A stretch of 19,295 nt of DNA, taken from Candidatus Hydrogenedentes bacterium CG07_land_8_20_14_0_80_42_17. Lineage in GTDB: Bacteria; UBA8481. Numbering within the stretch: position 1 is the stretch's first letter; each line of letters starts with the position of its first letter. Made by a program: the position numbers and the translations under genes. The notes beneath the pieces are model-generated. The model did no database searches. It was not told where the DNA came from and was given only the letters and a program-made list of their open reading frames with translations. The stretch is from the NCBI GenBank assembly GCA_002780065.1, contig PEWQ01000170.1, positions 1-19,295 of the forward strand, read 5' to 3'. Shown here piece after piece: positions 2,742 through 14,823 of the stretch.

Positions 2742-4913
2742 TCATAACCTTATTTTAGCGTATCTCACATTCCCGCTTTGATCTACTGCTTTCACGGTAA
2801 ATGTCCAGCCACTGCCTCTCCGAATTACTCTGAAATATTCCAGAGATTCATCGCAAATTCCATCCTCAGACTTCAATGACTGCCATCGTCCGTTTTCATC
2901 TAGATAATAAAGTGCAGATATTCTTCCCATACTGTCTGTTGCACTGCCGTAAATTATCACTTCTCCGCTTGCACTTGTATCGCATTTTATCGATACATTC
3001 GGAGCTGTATTGTCTATAAGAAATCTTTCTGATGTCATATCGGAACTTGAACTGCTCTCTTCATCGTTATCCAATCGATCACTTACCGTAACTCGCAGAA
3101 GATAATATCCGTCAGAATACAGCGCTGAATTCAGTAAATATGCTGTCCCGCTGTAGTTTGAGATTATCGGAATTGTTTCGCCGAATTCTTCGTCGAGCAA
3201 AACTATATTCGAAATTAATCTGTCTCTGTCCTGATCCTCAGCCTTCCATGAAAATAAGTAGCTTCCCGCAAAACCGCTCATCAGATTTTCAAAACTGTTT
3301 TCACCCTTCTGCTGATTTACTATGTTGCGGACAGCTTGAGCAAACTGCATCACCATCTGGCCGAATGGCCCACTGCGAGCCAACTTCTGTATTTCGCTCT
3401 GCGAAAATGAAACCGGTGCGCCTGAAAGTTCGGTAATTCTTGGGCTTCTGTTGAAGACCTGATATGTGACTTCAAGATGCTTTATGTAATCCGATTCCTC
3501 TATTCTATTATGCCTGATTTCGAACTGAAGATACTGTGCGGAAGGGCTCTCGATCTTCAATCCTGAACCTCGTATCGGTAAACTCCATGCCGACCATGTG
3601 ACATCTGGCGTAGATGAGTTTCCACTTCGAGTCCGAATCTCCCATTCTCCATCAGCCTCGAAATTAATCACGCCCCACGACGCTGGGCCCTGAGCGTCAA
3701 GCACCTGTGAACGGCAAAATGCATCTTCTCCGGCATCTACTATTTTATGCAAAACCGCGGGTTTCCCCGTTCCTATAAAATTTTTGGAAAGAGTCACAAT
3801 ATTCTTCTCATCGATTCCAAGAATTAGAGTGCTCTTCATCAATCCGTCGACGCGATAGATCGCTCCTAACTCGGATGCTGAAACAAATAATCCTCTCTCT
3901 GAAAAATTCAGAGAACGAATCATTGAACGGCTCTGTATCCACGGCTCGACTTTTCCCCCAGCATTGATGCGATAGATCATTGCAGTTCCTGCTGGCGCAG
4001 GAGCCGGAGCTGGTTGAGGTGCTTCCTCTTCTCCTGCACTCTCTTCAGAGTCGGGATCTGGATTTTCTCTTTCACTCGGAGTTTGAATAGTTGCACTGAC
4101 TCGAGAATTATTGCGGGCGTTTGAAATCGCAATCGCATAAAGATTTTTTTCGGAATCGAAAGTCATGTCGCATATCTCTTCTTGAGGCGGGTCGAAAATA
4201 ACCGTCACTGAAGGAGTATCTTTTTCAAGACGAGTTACCAATAAAATATTTCCTACCGCGCCTTGTGTTCCTGCATAGAGTTTTTCACCGTCAGTAGCCA
4301 TAGAGAGTATGTGAAGATCCGTCGATGTATAAATTTTATCCAGTCTTCCGTTTCTCCATCTGTAAATAGAGCCGCCACGGCCTGTTGCGCCGCTCCCTGT
4401 AGCAATCCACAATGCGCCGTTAATCTCGGTTATCCGCCAGATATACGAATCAGGAAGAATAAGTTCGTCGAACTTTTCTAATCCGTTTTCAGTGCGGTGA
4501 AATTTTAAGATCTTGCCGATCGGTGAAACTCCGGCAACAATATCTCCGTCAACAGTTTTTGCCAGAGCGTAAACTGCTACTCCTTCACCATCCCAAACAG
4601 ACGAAATCATCGAGTCTGATATTTCCGAATCGACGCGAATTATTTTAGCGCCGTCGCCCGTTCCAAGATATGTCGCATCGTCAAATTCCAATATCGACCA
4701 GATATAATCAACAGGTATAGGCAAAGGCAGAGTTCCAATGCCCGGTTTTATCTTCCCCGAAGGATCAACCTCAAATCCGTTCACTTTGAATTTTGAAAAA
4801 TCACTGCGGCTCTGAAATGTCCAACTGCCGTTCTTCGCCGCATCTGCATATCCGATCTCGAAAACCATCAGCAAAAGAGCAGGCAATATTTTTACCAGCG
4901 TCCGAATCCTCAT
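2742..4913 (-). CDS. Secreted multidomain beta-propeller protein with C-terminal Ig/FnIII-like domains
   Basis: Function unknown. Residues 1-25 form a signal peptide ending near YADA, so the protein is exported. Residues 71-391 contain about seven propeller-like repeats of the type IWSILEFDDATYLGTGDGAK: an aromatic or hydrophobic start, a turn, then a G-rich strand and a final I-x-R-[VIW]. The fifth repeat is interrupted at about 265-310 by an acidic, then Pro-Ala-rich linker. Residues 400-490 look like a beta-sandwich (WEIRTRSGNSSTPDVTWSAW), and 490-635 and 638-723 look like two further Ig/FnIII-like domains (FLIDNTAPNVSIKC; VKAVDQSGNVRYAKIRL). No catalytic motif was seen. Its ATG overlaps the S55 gene's stop in ATGA (4910-4913), so the two are probably translated together and may act at the same extracytoplasmic site. 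A sensor, scaffold or glycan-binding role is possible but unproven. Confidence 0.8.
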   Translation of the reverse strand: MRIRTLVKILPALLLMVFEIGYADAAKNGSWTFQSRSDFSKFKVNGFEVDPSGKIKPGIGTLPLPIPVDYIWSILEFDDATYLGTGDGAKIIRVDSEISDSMISSVWDGEGVAVYALAKTVDGDIVAGVSPIGKILKFHRTENGLEKFDELILPDSYIWRITEINGALWIATGSGATGRGGSIYRWRNGRLDKIYTSTDLHILSMATDGEKLYAGTQGAVGNILLVTRLEKDTPSVTVIFDPPQEEICDMTFDSEKNLYAIAISNARNNSRVSATIQTPSERENPDPDSEESAGEEEAPQPAPAPAPAGTAMIYRINAGGKVEPWIQSRSMIRSLNFSERGLFVSASELGAIYRVDGLMKSTLILGIDEKNIVTLSKNFIGTGKPAVLHKIVDAGEDAFCRSQVLDAQGPASWGVINFEADGEWEIRTRSGNSSTPDVTWSAWSLPIRGSGLKIESPSAQYLQFEIRHNRIEESDYIKHLEVTYQVFNRSPRITELSGAPVSFSQSEIQKLARSGPFGQMVMQFAQAVRNIVNQQKGENSFENLMSGFAGSYLFSWKAEDQDRDRLISNIVLLDEEFGETIPIISNYSGTAYLLNSALYSDGYYLLRVTVSDRLDNDEESSSSSDMTSERFLIDNTAPNVSIKCDTSASGEVIIYGSATDSMGRISALYYLDENGRWQSLKSEDGICDESLEYFRVIRRGSGWTFTVKAVDQSGNVRYAKIRL

Positions 4914-6547
4914 TCTTTAACCTCCACTCTCACAGAACCGATTCCGGATATTGGTATATCCGTCGATTCTTTTTGCCAAATGCTGTTTGGCTTGGTAGTT
5001 CTTCCTCTCTGAATTCTCTGCACAGTCGGCGGCAATGACGGAAGAATTCCTCTGTCCGTTTCTGTCAAGAGCCCCGATGAAGACGTAATCTGAGCAACAA
5101 GCATATTGCTCGGTTCATACTCAGCTAATGTTTTCATTAAGTCCTGAAGAGTTCTGGGCTGAGCTAATTCGCTTCTCGCAAACCCTCGGCCGCCAGTCAC
5201 CGTAACCTGTATCGTTCCTTCGTTCATTCCTTCGGGAATCGGAATATCGATCCGCTCGATTCGCTCCCCTTCATCGTAGACTCTCAACAGCACCTCGATC
5301 GGTAAGGTCTCGCCCGGCTTCACCGCGCCGCGCAATGCTCTGACTCCGTAAATTTTGCCTCTGCGTAAATCCTGATCCGCAGTCACTTCAACCTCGATTC
5401 TGTCCGGAAAGAATTTTTGAAAAGGATTTTCAAAAAGAAGAGTAACCGGCAGCGTCGGCATTACTTCCAATGGCGAGTTCGATACGACTCCGCGATCCCT
5501 CAACTCTATAATCTTTTCATCCTTAAAAATTCTGACTGCGACTTCAACTCCCGCGGCACCCTTAGCAAATAATCCTGACTGTGCTGACGCCGACCATGCG
5601 ATATCAATTAGCTGAGGAGTCAATACATAATCCTTCGCTATCGTATAAGAAAATTTCTTCTCGCCCCAAAGTGTCTTCAGCTCAACTGTCATCGGAAGCA
5701 TCGAAGCTGTCGGTCCTACCATTCCCGAAATTCCAGGGTCGCCGTCTCTAAGCATTACTCCGACATTTTCACTCGCGGACCCGAGTTTAAAAGAAATCTG
5801 CTGAGAAGGCATTATAGTCTCGATTATCGCTCCGCACATCGGAAGCCTGCTTATTCCCCGATTGAGAAACGGATGCCCGAATGCAATTACATTTGAATCT
5901 TCAACGTAGGTCACTGTCCCGATTGCCGTCATGGAAATATCGCCGTCAATCAGTTTTACTCCGACTGCACTGCCAGGTTCGAGTGATTGTTTTCCTGAGG
6001 TTCTTCCGGCAGGCGCTGATAAAAAACCGAGCCCGTCGATACGGCTCCACGCGGCGCCTGTTCTGTCAACTGGAAGGCCTGAAACCCAAAGCGGAGCCGA
6101 AAGCGGAATCATTCCATTCACTGCTGAAGTATCCATGCTCTGTTCCTCGATCAATTTCTTCATGAGCTTGATTGATGTCACACCTGCAATAGGATCTTTT
6201 GAGAATGCCCAGCCGTATGCCAACGCGCCAAGCAATCGTCCCCTAAAATATATCGGTGAACCGCTCATGCCGGCAATAATTCCGGTATGTTCAAATGGGT
6301 CGCCAATAAGTCGAATTAAAATTAGATCACGATTAGGTTCAACTTTATTAATCGTACCGATATATTTGACCGGAAAATGAATTATTGAATCGCCGCGTAG
6401 TACTGTCAGGCCGTAGCCGTCTTCCCCGGGAATAAGTTCTTCCGCAGAAATAAATCTTTCGTTATTTGTCTCGCTCAGCGCCGGTAATGAAATTAACGAA
6501 AGCGATATAAGAGCCAAAATTAATTTTGCTTTGTAATCAAAATTCAT
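4910..6547 (-). CDS. Exported SpoIVB/S55-type serine peptidase-like protein with permuted motif order
   Basis: Numbering is from the ATG at 6545-6547 (545 aa). This start puts a signal peptide (about 1-25, ending LPALS) at the N-terminus and has GAGGTG 10 nt upstream; an ATG at 6601 would add 18 residues before it. GMSGSP (93-98, S95) followed by GRLLGALAYGW matches the catalytic-serine segment of SpoIVB (peptidase family S55). D83 in LIGDPFEHTG lies where SpoIVB has its catalytic Asp, and VIAFGHPF (H225) resembles the SpoIVB catalytic-His segment ALGH. In SpoIVB the His precedes Asp and Ser; here it follows them. No PDZ domain is visible. The C-terminal third looks like beta domains with a short tail. 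SpoIVB belongs to sporulation, but nothing here suggests that role. It overlaps the propeller gene by 4 nt. Family assignment is strong; protease activity is inferred. Confidence 0.85.
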   Translation of the reverse strand: MNFDYKAKLILALISLSLISLPALSETNNERFISAEELIPGEDGYGLTVLRGDSIIHFPVKYIGTINKVEPNRDLILIRLIGDPFEHTGIIAGMSGSPIYFRGRLLGALAYGWAFSKDPIAGVTSIKLMKKLIEEQSMDTSAVNGMIPLSAPLWVSGLPVDRTGAAWSRIDGLGFLSAPAGRTSGKQSLEPGSAVGVKLIDGDISMTAIGTVTYVEDSNVIAFGHPFLNRGISRLPMCGAIIETIMPSQQISFKLGSASENVGVMLRDGDPGISGMVGPTASMLPMTVELKTLWGEKKFSYTIAKDYVLTPQLIDIAWSASAQSGLFAKGAAGVEVAVRIFKDEKIIELRDRGVVSNSPLEVMPTLPVTLLFENPFQKFFPDRIEVEVTADQDLRRGKIYGVRALRGAVKPGETLPIEVLLRVYDEGERIERIDIPIPEGMNEGTIQVTVTGGRGFARSELAQPRTLQDLMKTLAEYEPSNMLVAQITSSSGLLTETDRGILPSLPPTVQRIQRGRTTKPNSIWQKESTDIPISGIGSVRVEVKE

Positions 6548-6579
6548 TCGTAGTCTGCACCTCAAAATTTCTTTGAATG

Positions 6580-6608
6580 AAGATAAACTAGAATCAGACA
6601 ATAGGCAA
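6580..6608 (-). promoter_or_regulatory. Candidate promoter for the S55-propeller-accA-gltX unit
   Basis: Reading the minus strand, TTGCCT (6603-6608) and TATCTT (6580-6585) are separated by 17 nt, each matching 4 of 6 consensus bases. The -10 box lies about 33 nt before the preferred ATG at 6547 and after the histone gene's terminator. The match is modest, and the -35 lies inside an inverted repeat. Confidence 0.3.
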
Positions 6609-6630: not shown

Positions 6631-6670
6631 TAAAAAAGGCGGCAAACCGAAGCAAACTCCGATTGCCGCC
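6631..6670 (-). terminator. Intrinsic terminator of the histone gene
   Basis: On the minus strand GGCGGCAA (6663-6670) and TTGCCGCC (6638-6645) form an 8-bp GC-rich stem, and the inner TCGGAG/CTTCGG bases extend it in part. A run of six T (6632-6637) follows at once. It starts 38 nt after the histone stop codon. This is the clearest terminator in the window. Confidence 0.88.
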
Positions 6671-6707: not shown

Positions 6708-6908
6708 TTAAATGTCCTGAGGACGAATTGTCTGACGACCATTCGCCTTTGCTCGAGCGATAGCAGCTTTGATTGACTCAACTGTCGCTTTGTTTGCCGC
6801 CTCAACAAAATCACCTGAGACGCGAACTCCACCTGCTTTTGCGACCTCTTTGATTCTGGATGCCAGAACCACCTGAATCGATGCCGGTTTCGATGCCTTC
6901 TTTGCCAT
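6708..6908 (-). CDS. Bacterial histone-fold DNA-binding protein (66 aa)
   Basis: A small basic protein: a Lys/Ala-rich tail (MAKKASKPAS) followed by a histone fold that I align by eye with archaeal histones such as HMfB. The segment RIKEVAKAGGVRVSGDF fits helix 1 and loop 1 (HMfB: RIIKDAGAERVSDD). Residues 34-56 fit the long helix 2. GRQTIRPQDI fits loop 2 (HMfB: GRKTIKAEDI). R58, T60 and D65 keep the spacing of the conserved R-x-T and the R52-D59 salt bridge. The frame stops right after DI with TAA TAA TAA, so helix 3 is essentially absent, as in the short histones known from some bacteria (Bdellovibrio Bd0055 type). It is expected to dimerise and bind DNA in the nucleoid; the DNA-binding mode is open. 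The ATG has GGGAGGTGA 8 nt upstream. It is a single-gene unit with its own promoter and terminator. It is not HU: none of the HU beta-arm motifs are present. Confidence 0.88.
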   Translation of the reverse strand: MAKKASKPASIQVVLASRIKEVAKAGGVRVSGDFVEAANKATVESIKAAIARAKANGRQTIRPQDI

Positions 6909-6916
6909 TATTTATG

Positions 6917-6925
6917 TCACCTCCC
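6917..6925 (-). promoter_or_regulatory. Very strong ribosome binding site of the histone gene
   Basis: The minus strand reads GGGAGGTGA, nearly full complementarity to the 16S anti-Shine-Dalgarno, with 8 nt to the ATG at 6908. It is the best such site I noticed in the window and fits an abundant protein. Confidence 0.85.
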
Positions 6926-7022: not shown

Positions 7023-7047
7023 AAAAAAAAATGCTCTACAAGGCATT
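7023..7047 (-). terminator. Weak candidate terminator of the GT39-type gene
   Basis: On the minus strand AATGC (7043-7047) and GCATT (7030-7034) form a 5-bp stem that encloses the TAG stop codon, followed by an uninterrupted T run. The stem is short and AT-leaning, so termination would be weak. The T run also adjoins the histone promoter. Confidence 0.4.
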
Positions 7048-8583
7048 ATTTTCGGCGCTAGCCCTCAAAGGATTCCTTAAAATCGAAGCGTAAACTATTC
7101 CGCTTCTTGTCAAAATCGGTCTGCCTATTCCCGAAAACATTTTGCCATTGTAAGATGAACTTCCCAAAATTAAAAACCAATCGGCATTTCTTTTCGAAGT
7201 AATATTAATTTTCTTTCCGGCAAAATTCAGCAGACGATTCAATTCAAGTCTCCATTCAGGAGAATCAAAATACAGCGGGAGGTCTGAAGAGCCTCCTGGA
7301 ACTATTGCGTAATCTCCATTCGGAAGTCCCGAAAGAATTCTAAACGTCAAAATGTCTCCGCTCGCAGTCACAGGCATATTCCATTTTACAGCCGTTTTTG
7401 GACCTCCAATTAATTCGCTGATGTAAAAACTTTCAGCAGGATGAAAAAGCAAAAGCGAAATTAAAAACGGCAATCCAATCGCAGTGACAGCAATGAGTTT
7501 GTATCTAGGAAACCGTTCCGCAATAGTACCTGCTCCCAAACCGCCTAGAAGAGCCATGACAGCGGCTACAGGCATAAGATGTCTCATCCCTTCACGCAGA
7601 AATTCATGAGCCAGAATTCCCGTGATAAATGCAAAGAGCAAAAAAGAGCGGAGCATATTCGAGAGCGGGCCTCGTCTGAAAATTAATTCATACAAAGCAA
7701 AAAGAAGAAGAATGGGCGGAAAACCGATTGCAAACCAGACAAAGATATAATGCCATTGAGGGGCGCTGCACGGACCAAAATAAAGAGTAGACGGTCTAAT
7801 AAGAATTTCACCCGTCTCGGCAGAAGGCATCATTCCTGCAAAATATGTAATGTGGCTCCATAGTGCCGACGGTTCAATTACAAGAACCGGCCACGTCAAT
7901 AAAAATCCAAAAAAAGTTCCTGCCATAAACAACTTCAGGCGGACATAAAAAGGCAATTCACTTTGAATTCCTTTCCATAACCATATCGGAACTGCAAAAA
8001 GAAGTATCGCTCCTGATATTTTTGTTCCGATAGAAAGTCCTGCAAATAATCCCGCAAGTAAAAAATTTCCGTGAGTCCTTGCTGCAAGAATTTCCGAAAG
8101 TGATAGAAGAATAAACGACGTAGCTACTGATTCATTGGAAGCCTGAGCTGAGAAAGCGAAAAGAGGCGGAGCTACGAGCAATGAAAGAAGAACAGAGTAT
8201 GCGGCAAGTTTGCCTCGAGGCCTTCGCACTATAGAATAAACCCTTGTCACCGCTATTGCATAAAGAACTGCAGGAAAAAATCGAATCCAAAAGATTTTTT
8301 CTCCGCCGAGAATCAATCCGAACGCAACCAGAATTTTTGCAGGAGAAGGCCGTTCCGTTCCGAACCAGACTGAATAAGTTGGAATGTTTCCATGAAGCCA
8401 GCCAATAAAACATTTTGCATCCAGAATCATTCGAGCCTCATCGAACGTGAGCCCGTATGCGTTCAAATGAGAAGTAACAAGAATTAACGACAAAATAAAT
8501 ATTAGAATCGGCGTCAATCCTGCTGAAGGTCTTTCATCCAGAATGGGTAATGGTGCCGGTCTTATAGTTATATAGTTATTCAT
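7036..8583 (-). CDS. GT39/PMT-type multi-pass membrane glycosyltransferase
   Basis: A polytopic membrane protein of 515 residues resembling the dolichyl-phosphate-mannose mannosyltransferase/ArnT group (GT39, PMT_2), which moves sugars from polyprenyl-phosphate carriers on the outer face of the inner membrane. A first membrane segment (about 24-40) is followed by LTFDEARMI with D48-E49, where the family carries its acidic catalytic residue in the first periplasmic loop. Some ten further hydrophobic segments run to about 380, and a soluble C-terminal region of about 130 residues follows. The acceptor is unknown; neighbouring glycosyltransferase and methyltransferase genes suggest surface glycan or glycoprotein. 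The ATG at 8581-8583 overlaps the end of the transposase gene by 8 nt, and codons 2-11 (NNYITIRPAP) lie in the element's left arm. It has no good ribosome binding site, so the native start may be the TTG at residue 23, after the arm. Confidence 0.85.
   Translation of the reverse strand: MNNYITIRPAPLPILDERPSAGLTPILIFILSLILVTSHLNAYGLTFDEARMILDAKCFIGWLHGNIPTYSVWFGTERPSPAKILVAFGLILGGEKIFWIRFFPAVLYAIAVTRVYSIVRRPRGKLAAYSVLLSLLVAPPLFAFSAQASNESVATSFILLSLSEILAARTHGNFLLAGLFAGLSIGTKISGAILLFAVPIWLWKGIQSELPFYVRLKLFMAGTFFGFLLTWPVLVIEPSALWSHITYFAGMMPSAETGEILIRPSTLYFGPCSAPQWHYIFVWFAIGFPPILLLFALYELIFRRGPLSNMLRSFLLFAFITGILAHEFLREGMRHLMPVAAVMALLGGLGAGTIAERFPRYKLIAVTAIGLPFLISLLLFHPAESFYISELIGGPKTAVKWNMPVTASGDILTFRILSGLPNGDYAIVPGGSSDLPLYFDSPEWRLELNRLLNFAGKKINITSKRNADWFLILGSSSYNGKMFSGIGRPILTRSGIVYASILRNPLRASAENNAL
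8552..8580 (+). repeat. Left inverted arm of the Y1 element
   Basis: 29 nt beginning GGTGCCGGTCTTATAG and followed by an AT-rich direct repeat. It matches the reverse complement of the right arm at 28 of 29 positions once one extra 8-nt unit in the right arm is left out. It overlaps the transposase stop codon and the start region of the GT39-type gene. Confidence 0.85.
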
Positions 8584-9433
8584 AATTTATGCGGATTAGA
8601 TTCACATAACCAGATGTTCGGTTAAAGTAACGACCAATCTCACTCGGGCCGTATCCGCAATTTAACATTTCTTTTATTGCATCTTTTCGTATTCGACTGA
8701 TGTTTCTATCGCGACTTAATCCACGCATTTCTTTTATTGTAATTTTGAAGTTGGCTGAGTATCGGTTAGCGATATTTTCAATTGTTTCACGTTCTCTGCG
8801 ATCAAAGCTTTGAATACTCTGTCTGTCTTTCCTTCTCTTATTAATTTTAATTGATTCCTGCATGGTTCCAATAAATGTCTTATAGTTAGGAGTAACTTTC
8901 TCTAATCTACTTTTTAGAAGATCCTTATAATTATTTATACCCGCTTTGCCCTCATAACCCGGAACCTTTACAAATGATTTCCATAGGCATTTTTTGCCCA
9001 TATAATATTTCTCACTGCTCCATAAATATCTTTGCTCTTTTGTTTCCAACCCAGCCCGTCTGGGATTTTCATGTATATAAAATATCAATGACTCCAAATA
9101 CGAGTCATCCAGCACTATAAAACTTTTATACCGACCTTGAAACAAATGTCCATCCCTTCCATAAATCCGATTGAAATCGTGACTGTATTTCGAATGAACA
9201 TTGTGTATTACGGAAGATAGCATATCCGATCCTCGACGTATAAGGATGTGAATATGATTAGGCATTAAACAATAAGCTCCAAGATTTCCACGGCTAGCAT
9301 AAAGCCTATCATCCAACAATTTGAGATAATACTCATAATCTGCTGGGCATTTAAAAATTCTCTGTCGCTCGTTGCCGCGGGCAATAACATGATACCAATA
9401 ATCTTCAAGATCAATTCTTGGTGGACGTCCCAT
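8576..9433 (-). CDS. REP-associated-type Y1 (HUH) transposase
   Basis: A 285-residue single-strand transposase of the TnpA-REP/RAYT branch of the IS200/IS605-like Y1 family. It opens with the family signature MGRPPRIDLEDYWYHVIARG. The HUH motif is at 60-62 in YCLMPNHIHILI (H60-I-H62). The catalytic Tyr is probably Y119 in LIFYIHENPRRAGL, following FQGRYKS (98-104). A C-terminal extension (about 210-285) has a DnaA-domain-4-like helix-turn-helix (LNCGYGPSEIGRYFNRTSG). The frame is intact and all key residues are present, so it may be active. The family nicks and joins single-stranded DNA at short palindromes and often occurs as one domesticated copy per genome. The ATG at 9431-9433 has no clear ribosome binding site. 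The gene is AT-rich. Confidence 0.93.
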   Translation of the reverse strand: MGRPPRIDLEDYWYHVIARGNERQRIFKCPADYEYYLKLLDDRLYASRGNLGAYCLMPNHIHILIRRGSDMLSSVIHNVHSKYSHDFNRIYGRDGHLFQGRYKSFIVLDDSYLESLIFYIHENPRRAGLETKEQRYLWSSEKYYMGKKCLWKSFVKVPGYEGKAGINNYKDLLKSRLEKVTPNYKTFIGTMQESIKINKRRKDRQSIQSFDRRERETIENIANRYSANFKITIKEMRGLSRDRNISRIRKDAIKEMLNCGYGPSEIGRYFNRTSGYVNLIRINYE

Positions 9434-12130: not shown

Positions 12131-12237
12131 GTATAATTTTTTCTTTCAAAATTCTCTAAAGTTAAACAATTCTAATGCCGAAAATTAAATCAAAGCAATT
12201 CCCGTTTAAGGACAGCTTTATTGGAAAGGATTCCATT

Positions 12238-12756
12238 ATGTCGATCGCAGGAGTCATATCAGCTTCACATCAACCTTATTCATACGACAATGAATCTACA
12301 ACAAAATCGTCCGGTATGCGAGAAGCAAAAGAGCTCACACCTGAAGAAGAAAAAAAAGTTGAAGAACTCAAAGACAGAGATGAAGAGGTTCGCAGGCACG
12401 AGCAGGCGCACATTGCGGCGGCGGGGCAATATGTTCGAGGCGGAGCACAGTATGATTACAAGCGGGGACCTGACGGAAATACTTACGCAGTAGGCGGCGA
12501 GGTCAAAATAGATACATCCGCAGAGAAAGATCCTAAAGCCACCATACAAAAAATGGAAGTTGTAAAGCGAGCCGCATTAGCCCCAGAGCATCCATCAGCA
12601 CAAGACAGGAGAGTAGCCTCAGAAGCAGACGCAGTAGCAATGAAAGCTCAACGCGATCTTGCCCAAACAATTTCACAGAGCGAAGGCATCTCGCAATTAG
12701 CCGCACTAAAAAAGGCGAATAACGACACATCTCATAAAATCGATCTTGCGGCGTGA
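12238..12756 (+). CDS. SprA-related putative metalloprotease-fold protein (HExxH)
   Basis: A 172-residue protein of the SprA-related family (a group annotated as having a putative metalloprotease catalytic domain). Numbered from the ATG at 12238, HEQAH at 54-58 supplies an HExxH zinc motif. It is followed by the family's conserved stretch: [16 protein letters not shown], then [25 protein letters not shown]. An acidic, charged helical segment precedes the motif, and there is no signal peptide or membrane segment. AAAGGA lies 7 nt before this ATG; an in-frame ATG at 12175 lacks such a site and would add 21 residues unlike the family. It stands alone on the plus strand between two minus-strand units. 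Proteolysis has not been shown for the family as far as I know, and the biological role is open. Confidence 0.85.
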
Positions 12757-13625: not shown

Positions 13626-14401
13626 CGTTCTTCCTCGGAATTTTCCATAATCTTTTCAAGCTCGGATTGAGAAGTCGGCCTTCCTCGCCACAAAATATTT
13701 CCTCTCGAAAGAACAAAAGCGCTTTCAGCGAGCGACGCTAATTCAATGTCATGCCCGGCAATAATAATCGAAAGATCTCTTCTTTGCCGAAATTCGAGAA
13801 GTGCCGCAATTAGCGCTTTCTTTGCGGCAATATCAATCGACCGCGTCGGTTCATCAAGAAGAATCACCTGCGGTGAGCCGAGAAATGCTCTGGCAACAGC
13901 AAGTTTCAGTTTCATGCCGGTCGTGTAAGTCCAAACAGGCTGACCGACAATTTCAGAACTCAATTCAAGTCTTTCGCATGCCGGAATAATTTCGGAAAGT
14001 TTATCTCTTGAAAGCCTGGCGTAAAACCTCAGGTTCTCATATCCGGTAAGTCTTTCCTGAAATTGCCGCTCGTTGGCAGTAATGTATACAACTTTTTCGG
14101 CATTACGCCGCACTGCGCCTTTCGTCGGTAATAGAACTCCCGAAATGATTCTAAGAAGAGTTGTTTTCCCCGAGCCATTGCGGCCGAAGAAGCAGTGAAA
14201 AGTATTCGGACTTATTTCATAATTTATATTCGACAATGCTCTGATAAATTTTTTTTGGGAAAAAGGGCGCCAAAAAGACGAACGTCTCTGAAATTCCATG
14301 CAAACATTTTCTAGTTTAACAAAATGATTCAGTTCTTCAGTCCTCTGCGTATTATTTCCATCTCTAGAATTTTTTGCTCGTTCTTCAAATATTTTTTCCA
14401 A
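13622..14401 (-). CDS. ABC-2 type transporter ATP-binding protein
   Basis: The nucleotide-binding subunit that powers the neighbouring permease. Walker A is GRNGSGKTT (73-81), the Q-loop region is ANERQFQERLTGYENL, the signature is the degenerate TTGMKLKLAVARA (160-172) in place of LSGGQ, Walker B is VILLDEPT (179-186), the D-loop is SID, and the switch His is H217 in AGHD. The TGMK form is common in ABC-2 exporters. The start is uncertain. TTG at 14399-14401 overlaps the GYF gene by 73 nt and adds about 24 residues unlike the family. A CTG at 14330-14332, with AGAGGA 8 nt upstream and a CTGA overlap with the GYF stop, would give a typical N-terminus (NHFVKLENVCMEF). The first ATG is at residue 35. 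Confidence 0.92.
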   Translation of the reverse strand: MEKIFEERAKNSRDGNNTQRTEELNHFVKLENVCMEFQRRSSFWRPFSQKKFIRALSNINYEISPNTFHCFFGRNGSGKTTLLRIISGVLLPTKGAVRRNAEKVVYITANERQFQERLTGYENLRFYARLSRDKLSEIIPACERLELSSEIVGQPVWTYTTGMKLKLAVARAFLGSPQVILLDEPTRSIDIAAKKALIAALLEFRQRRDLSIIIAGHDIELASLAESAFVLSRGNILWRGRPTSQSELEKIMENSEEER

Positions 14402-14823
14402 AATTCTTTTTTCTGTCTCTGCAATAATTCATCAGGAGCATTTCTGCAGATAATCCATAGTTCGCGCAATTTCGGCGGCAAATCTTTCGGAGCCTGATCA
14501 TTAGGTCTCGCTCTAACCGGCGGAGCAGTCTGAACGGGAGTCGTAGAACCAAATGGGCTCGATGCTGTTCTATTGCCAAAAGGCCCAAAAGGCATTGCGC
14601 CCTGCTGAGCGGCAAAAGGCGGTGGAGTAACACTTGCAGGCGCAAACGGAGGTGGAACCGCAGGTGTAAGATAAACTGCAAGTTCCTGAACATTTTCTGC
14701 CGCACTCCATTCGTCACTTCCCTCTGCGCAAACCTGAAGATCATGTTTCAATATCTTCTGCAGTTCGAACGCTTCATACGGTCCGGCTACATTTCCGTTA
14801 ACAAAAGCATAATATCTGCTCAC
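14329..14823 (-). CDS. GYF_2-domain protein with proline-rich linker
   Basis: A 164-residue protein of unknown function. Residues 1-52 (YYAFVNGNVAGPYEAFELQK, then AEGSDEWSAAENV) look like a GYF_2 (DUF4339-type) domain, a small fold thought to bind proline-rich peptides. Residues 53-115 are a Pro/Ala/Phe-rich, probably disordered linker (repeated PPPFAP-like units), which such a domain might itself bind. Residues 117-164 form a charged helical tail. No signal peptide or membrane segment is visible. GTG (14821-14823) is the start, in a GTGA overlap with the dxs stop. The gene lies between dxs and the ABC exporter genes in the same transcript. An adaptor role is a guess. Confidence 0.75.
   Translation of the reverse strand: MSRYYAFVNGNVAGPYEAFELQKILKHDLQVCAEGSDEWSAAENVQELAVYLTPAVPPPFAPASVTPPPFAAQQGAMPFGPFGNRTASSPFGSTTPVQTAPPVRARPNDQAPKDLPPKLRELWIICRNAPDELLQRQKKEFWKKYLKNEQKILEMEIIRRGLKN

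Follow-up and report, generated by a model that had tools for sequence, protein, structure and literature searches.

Bacterial histones of the kind considered here were described in papers from 2023 to 2025. FtF histones are tetramers with the family profile R48, N52, R54, T56 and D61, whereas the bacterial dimers are without R48 and N52 (PMC11390915). Most reports of FtF histones in bacteria concern Spirochaetota, Planctomycetota, Bdellovibrionota and Myxococcota (PMC11390915). For the FtF histone HLp of Leptospira perolatii (PDB 9QT0, 9QT1 and 9QT2), crystal and DNA-complex structures revealed a ring-shaped homotetramer with about 60 bp of DNA around its basic rim (PMC12701072). Its tetramer interface involves R49, N53 and R55, with R55 and D62 forming an RD clamp and T57 making a loop-2 DNA contact; the DNA contacts are A13-S14-K15, K17, K21, T27, G29, T56 and T57 (PMC12701072). 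Further systems for comparison are the archaeal FtF histone HTkC of Thermococcus kodakarensis (PDB 9F2C; PMC11390915), the dimer HBb of Bdellovibrio bacteriovorus (Bd0055; PDB 8CMP, 8FVX and 9EZZ; PMC11317129, PMC10627809) and the archaeal nucleosomal histones HMfA and HMfB.

Here we compare with these systems a 66-codon gene of a Candidatus Hydrogenedentes genome. Based on its sequence and on analogy with HLp, we posit with a probability of about 0.78 that it is a chromosomal, vertically inherited bacterial FtF alpha3 histone, which would form a homotetramer wrapping about 60 bp and would be one of several nucleoid organisers.

The histone gene and its neighbourhood

The window, that is, the whole stretch of 19,295 nucleotides that was analysed, stems from a genome of 2.39 Mb (207 contigs, 87% complete) with a single histone copy. 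The original prediction had placed a stand-alone histone-fold gene at 6708-6908; these coordinates are exact, and the strand, which had been left unstated, is the minus strand. The open reading frame runs from an ATG start to a TAA stop at 6708-6710 and encodes MAKKASKPASIQVVLASRIKEVAKAGGVRVSGDFVEAANKATVESIKAAIARAKANGRQTIRPQDI. The features of the locus are as follows:

6708..6908, minus strand: histone gene, FtF-type alpha3 histone of 66 aa by its sequence and predicted fold (ORF; phmmer to HLp E 6.4e-6; AlphaFold2 pLDDT 82.9; Foldseek HLp TM 0.91)
6917..6925, minus strand: Shine-Dalgarno sequence GGGAGGTGA, ending 8 nt ahead of the histone ATG (read directly from the sequence)
6632..6670, minus strand: predicted intrinsic terminator 3' of the histone gene, a 14-bp GC-rich stem and then TTTTTT (fold)
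4910..6601, minus strand: SpoIVB-type (S55) peptidase-like protein, conserved downstream neighbour beyond the terminator, start codon uncertain (Pfam PF05580, 2.8e-6; also in J006)
7036..8583, minus strand: PMT_2 glycosyltransferase, conserved upstream neighbour (Pfam PF13231, 4.2e-9; also in J006)
Segments of the histone, by residue: basic tail 1-10; alpha1 16-25; loop 1 26-31; alpha2 32-55; loop 2 56-62; short alpha3 63-65

Because a Shine-Dalgarno sequence lies upstream and a terminator follows soon after the stop codon, the histone gene looks like a transcription unit of its own, with the terminator separating it from the downstream SpoIVB-like peptidase gene. The terminator folds with -21.9 kcal/mol (z -4.9), and none of 200 shuffles was equally stable; the hairpin is absent from the list produced by a simple terminator scan of the window. 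These signals of a single-gene transcript are kept in Candidatus Hydrogenedentota bacterium J006 (RFFU01000034.1), an order-level relative from a different family, where the ortholog has the Shine-Dalgarno sequence AGGAGGTGAT at the equivalent place and a downstream stem followed by CCTTTTTCTTTTT. A promoter scan of the minus strand detected nothing resembling a sigma-70 site ahead of the histone gene, which is evidence neither way, and an Rfam search of the window returned no matches.

The histone occurs at the same place in both genomes examined for the phylum, and the two orthologs are 69% identical. The gene order common to the window and J006 is gltX, accA, a large Ig-like protein, the SpoIVB-like protein, the histone, the PMT_2 transferase and a GT4 transferase. 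Over 57 aligned codons the two histone genes show 27 synonymous and 14 nonsynonymous differences, and 37 of the 55 base differences fall on third codon positions. Comparison of this pair suggests that the gene is under purifying selection. As the G+C content of the two compared stretches is 15 points apart (43% in the window, 58% in J006), the conservation lies at the level of the protein.

The sole difference in gene content seen within the conserved block is an IS200-like (Y1_Tnp) transposase at 8576-9433 on the minus strand of the window, which has a weak DnaA-C-like C-terminus, resembles REP-associated transposases and is absent in J006. The SpoIVB-type S55 peptidase-like protein and a secreted Ig-like protein of 723 aa form a conserved pair (2742-6601, minus strand) that adjoins accA in both genomes. 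Elsewhere in the window we observed a stretch of about 94 bases repeated in tandem beyond the end of gltX (1-180), where KLQIGKCKLKILFFQFSFF occurs twice in the ORF products, at about 32 and about 126, a SprA-related family protein (12175-12756, plus strand; Pfam PF12118, 2.7e-28) and a GYF_2-domain protein with no assigned role (14329-14823, minus strand).

The ORF at 6708-6908 is a real gene. It is short, and all its Pfam and NCBIfam matches stay under the curated cut-offs, which would suit a spurious frame in an intergenic stretch; this reading is refuted by a profile score far above that of shuffles, by selection at the protein level, by the conserved Shine-Dalgarno sequence and terminator and by the predicted fold, and we consider its probability negligible. 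It is likewise very improbable that the gene is an archaeal contaminant or was recently acquired from archaea, a phage or a plasmid. Such an origin could be argued for since FtF histones occur widely among archaea and inter-domain transfer has been proposed (PMC11390915), but it is a bacterial FtF histone that matches best, the neighbours (gltX, accA) are bacterial and the gene order recurs unchanged in J006, which belongs to a different family. The argument of the original prediction that bacterial neighbours speak against archaeal contamination is thus strengthened by synteny in J006. Searching 50,697 phage and 72,556 plasmid records with tblastn gave no histone match close enough to be detected in either set, and a phage or plasmid origin was rejected. 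An ancient transfer of the gene from archaea would be compatible with these data.

Histone identity and relation to described classes

A phmmer search of the window protein against all PDB sequences returned HLp as the best match (6.4e-6), followed by HTkC (0.0055) and HBb (0.0058). With a profile of seven sequences, the window protein included, the values were 4.5e-20 for HLp, 2.2e-17 for HTkC, 4e-15 for HBb and 8e-5 for HMfA. A profile of 14 homologs, from which the window protein and its J006 ortholog had been left out, scored the window protein at 65.2 bits, whereas the best of 20,000 shuffles reached 16.9 bits. The single-sequence scores in Pfam and NCBIfam were all under the curated cut-offs, so standard annotation would miss the gene. 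One of these matches, to the malate:quinone oxidoreductase Mqo, was dismissed as chance, being below cut-off, limited to 40 residues of an enzyme of 490 and contradicted by the fold and the PDB matches. The protein has a net charge of +8, a pI of 10.7 and no extra domain. Judged by the PDB matches, the 14-homolog profile, the J006 ortholog and the predicted fold, the 66-residue product is a histone, and the proposal that a bacterium encodes a histone fold in a gene of its own, here with a single domain, is borne out.

The AlphaFold2 monomer model, built with an alignment of 16 sequences, has a pLDDT of 82.9, with helices at 16-25 and 32-55, a short HHH at 63-65 and low confidence for the first ten residues. 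Foldseek ranked HLp first (TM 0.91 to target, rmsd 0.9 Å), with HTkC at TM 0.87 and HBb at TM 0.77-0.82. VIA-align gave Z 7.9-8.0 for HLp and Z 5.2-5.4 with rmsd 1.8-1.9 Å for archaeal nucleosomal histones, so that the overall order was HLp, then HBb and HTkC, then the archaeal nucleosomal histones. The monomer model has the short alpha1, long alpha2 and roughly one-turn alpha3 of the alpha3 group, at rmsd 0.9-1.7 Å to HLp, HBb and HTkC. HMfA and HMfB share the histone fold and the RxTxxxxD motif with it but have a longer alpha2 and a full alpha3, whereas the chain of the window protein stops at I66, after a single turn of alpha3. Four-helix-bundle stacking of the HMfB type would therefore not be available to it. 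The original prediction had likened the protein to archaeal histones such as HMfB; the shared fold and motif stand, while the closest kind is the bacterial FtF alpha3 histone HLp and not the archaeal nucleosomal type. DUF1931 histones are pseudodimers with two folds over about 138 positions, whereas the window protein has one fold in 66 aa and scores 13.7 bits against the Pfam DUF1931 cut-off of 21.8.

Residues R52, N56, R58, T60 and D65 of the window protein align to R49, N53, R55, T57 and D62 of HLp and to R48, N52, R54, T56 and D61 of the FtF profile, and all five are invariant in 16 FtF-like rows. R58, T60 and D65, whose positions had been predicted correctly, make up the loop-2 motif RxTxxxxD, and K20 corresponds by alignment to the FtF alpha1 lysine (profile K16; HLp K17). 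HLp (34% identity) further resembles the window protein in its single fold, short alpha2, truncated alpha3, short N-terminal tail and basic alpha1, where K15, K17 and K21 correspond to R18, K20 and K24. Its neighbour genes differ, the window histone not adjoining smc/map. HTkC shares the fold, the alpha1 lysine and an arginine at the tetramer position, but it is archaeal and less similar (E 0.0055), has a glutamate at the position of N56 and lacks a similar N-terminal tail, as alpha1 begins almost at the first residue of its 59-residue chain (match from residue 3). HBb shares RxTxxxxD, ends directly after alpha3 and coexists with HU, but has S and D in place of R52 and N56.

Profiles of the FtF and the bacterial-dimer (HBb) type, both built without the window protein and its J006 ortholog, scored the window protein at 67.0 and 29.6 bits. 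Motif and tree had served to sort the training rows, which makes the comparison mildly circular; scoring only residues 1-51, ahead of the motif, reduces this and gave 30.7 bits for FtF and 9.4 bits for the dimer, so that the preference does not depend on the motif alone. When rows were left out one at a time, 22 of 23 FtF rows fell at least 19 bits to the FtF side (HTkC 14.7), and dimer rows were negative. The original prediction had also called for placement in a tree with archaeal and Bdellovibrio-type histones. In a tree built from 34 rows over 64 columns, HBb-type histones included, the window protein falls outside the HBb-type clade, which is supported at 96/96. The tree puts it and its J006 ortholog into a group of weak support (69/92 and 81/87), separate from HLp itself, and does not settle the deeper placement. 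According to sequence and model, the window histone thus groups with the FtF alpha3 histones rather than with the bacterial dimers or the HMf type.

Proposed assembly and role in the nucleoid

By analogy with HLp, we infer that two chains would pair via alpha2 into a histone-fold dimer, and that two such dimers may close face to face via R52, N56 and R58, which sit where alpha2 ends and in loop 2, so that the tetramer would have the shape of a ring. Its basic outer rim (R18, K20, K24, S31-G32 of loop 1 and T60 of loop 2) might then wrap about 60 bp of DNA with no sequence preference, as HLp has been shown to do. The aligned counterparts of the HLp contacts are A16-S17-R18, K20, K24, V30, G32, Q59 and T60, so that most basic contacts appear to be kept, while the contact T27 of HLp is replaced by V30. 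The leucine-rich dimer core of HLp is also changed, with L35, L39 and L42 replaced by A38, T42 and S45, which makes the stability of the dimer uncertain and requires another packing of the core, perhaps involving F34. At the second and third of these positions the J006 ortholog has V and L.

Both the source genome and J006 have two genes of the HU/IHF family and a full-length SMC; searches of both genomes found no other histone and no DUF1931 histone. Since these other organisers are encoded, the histone would act beside them as one nucleoid component among several and not as the sole one, unlike in Leptospira, from which HU has been reported absent. In the source genome, codon usage gave no sign of high histone expression, but it is uninformative there because the ribosomal genes are likewise unbiased. 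The J006 histone has a codon adaptation of 0.713, above every neighbour tested and within the range of ribosomal genes, a mildly positive sign of high expression.

Two other readings concern what the protein does with DNA. As a bacterial dimer like HBb of Bdellovibrio, it would stay a dimer and bend DNA in the manner of HU/IHF, with no wrapping. The common fold with HBb as a close structural match, the shared RxTxxxxD, the basic residues of alpha1 and a dimer core unlike that of HLp would fit such a protein; the joint presence of R52 and N56, which bacterial dimers are without, the 37 bits towards the FtF profile and the position outside the supported HBb-type clade make it quite unlikely. Slightly more weight, though still little, may be given to a histone fold that does not organise the genome and serves as a specialised regulator at a few sites or, like the TAFs of eukaryotes, as part of a different complex. 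Two HU/IHF genes and SMC are already at hand, codon bias for high expression is missing from the source genome, and the authors of the family survey call a global role uncertain for many families (PMC11390915). On the other hand, the nearest characterised relatives belong to the genes with the highest expression in Leptospira and are likely to be essential there (PMC11390915, PMC10627809), the codon adaptation in J006 lies in the ribosomal range, and the protein is strongly basic with no additional domain. We therefore prefer the FtF tetramer as one of several nucleoid organisers. More tentatively, and with somewhat less than even odds, we suggest by analogy that an FtF histone would wrap DNA, giving nucleosome-like particles, in a small uncultured phylum outside the main hosts reported, together with two HU/IHF-family proteins and with a dimer core that no longer depends on leucine-rich packing as in HLp.

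Distribution among bacteria

The gene represents a new example of the known FtF kind, and the surveys of bacterial histones that were consulted do not name its lineage; the small size of the phylum suggests that it is not one of the four main FtF host phyla. With this gene, a deep lineage joins the patchy record of histones in bacteria, a point that bears on whether these are old or were repeatedly acquired; the gene also offers a natural case of an FtF histone beside HU/IHF, unlike in Leptospira. The seven-sequence profile matched 34 of 386 genomes sampled across bacteria, a distribution as patchy as published. Bacterial histones are probably under-counted, because the standard Pfam and NCBIfam cut-offs miss this one and because the fraction found here compares with 1.86% in a published survey that used another genome set and method (PMC10627809). 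Several of the sampled genomes, G030, G132, G151, G177 and G312 among them, carry more than one histone gene (two or three). Of those in G030, one has the FtF residues R and N, while the other (L003) has R and A and is closer to the dimer type.
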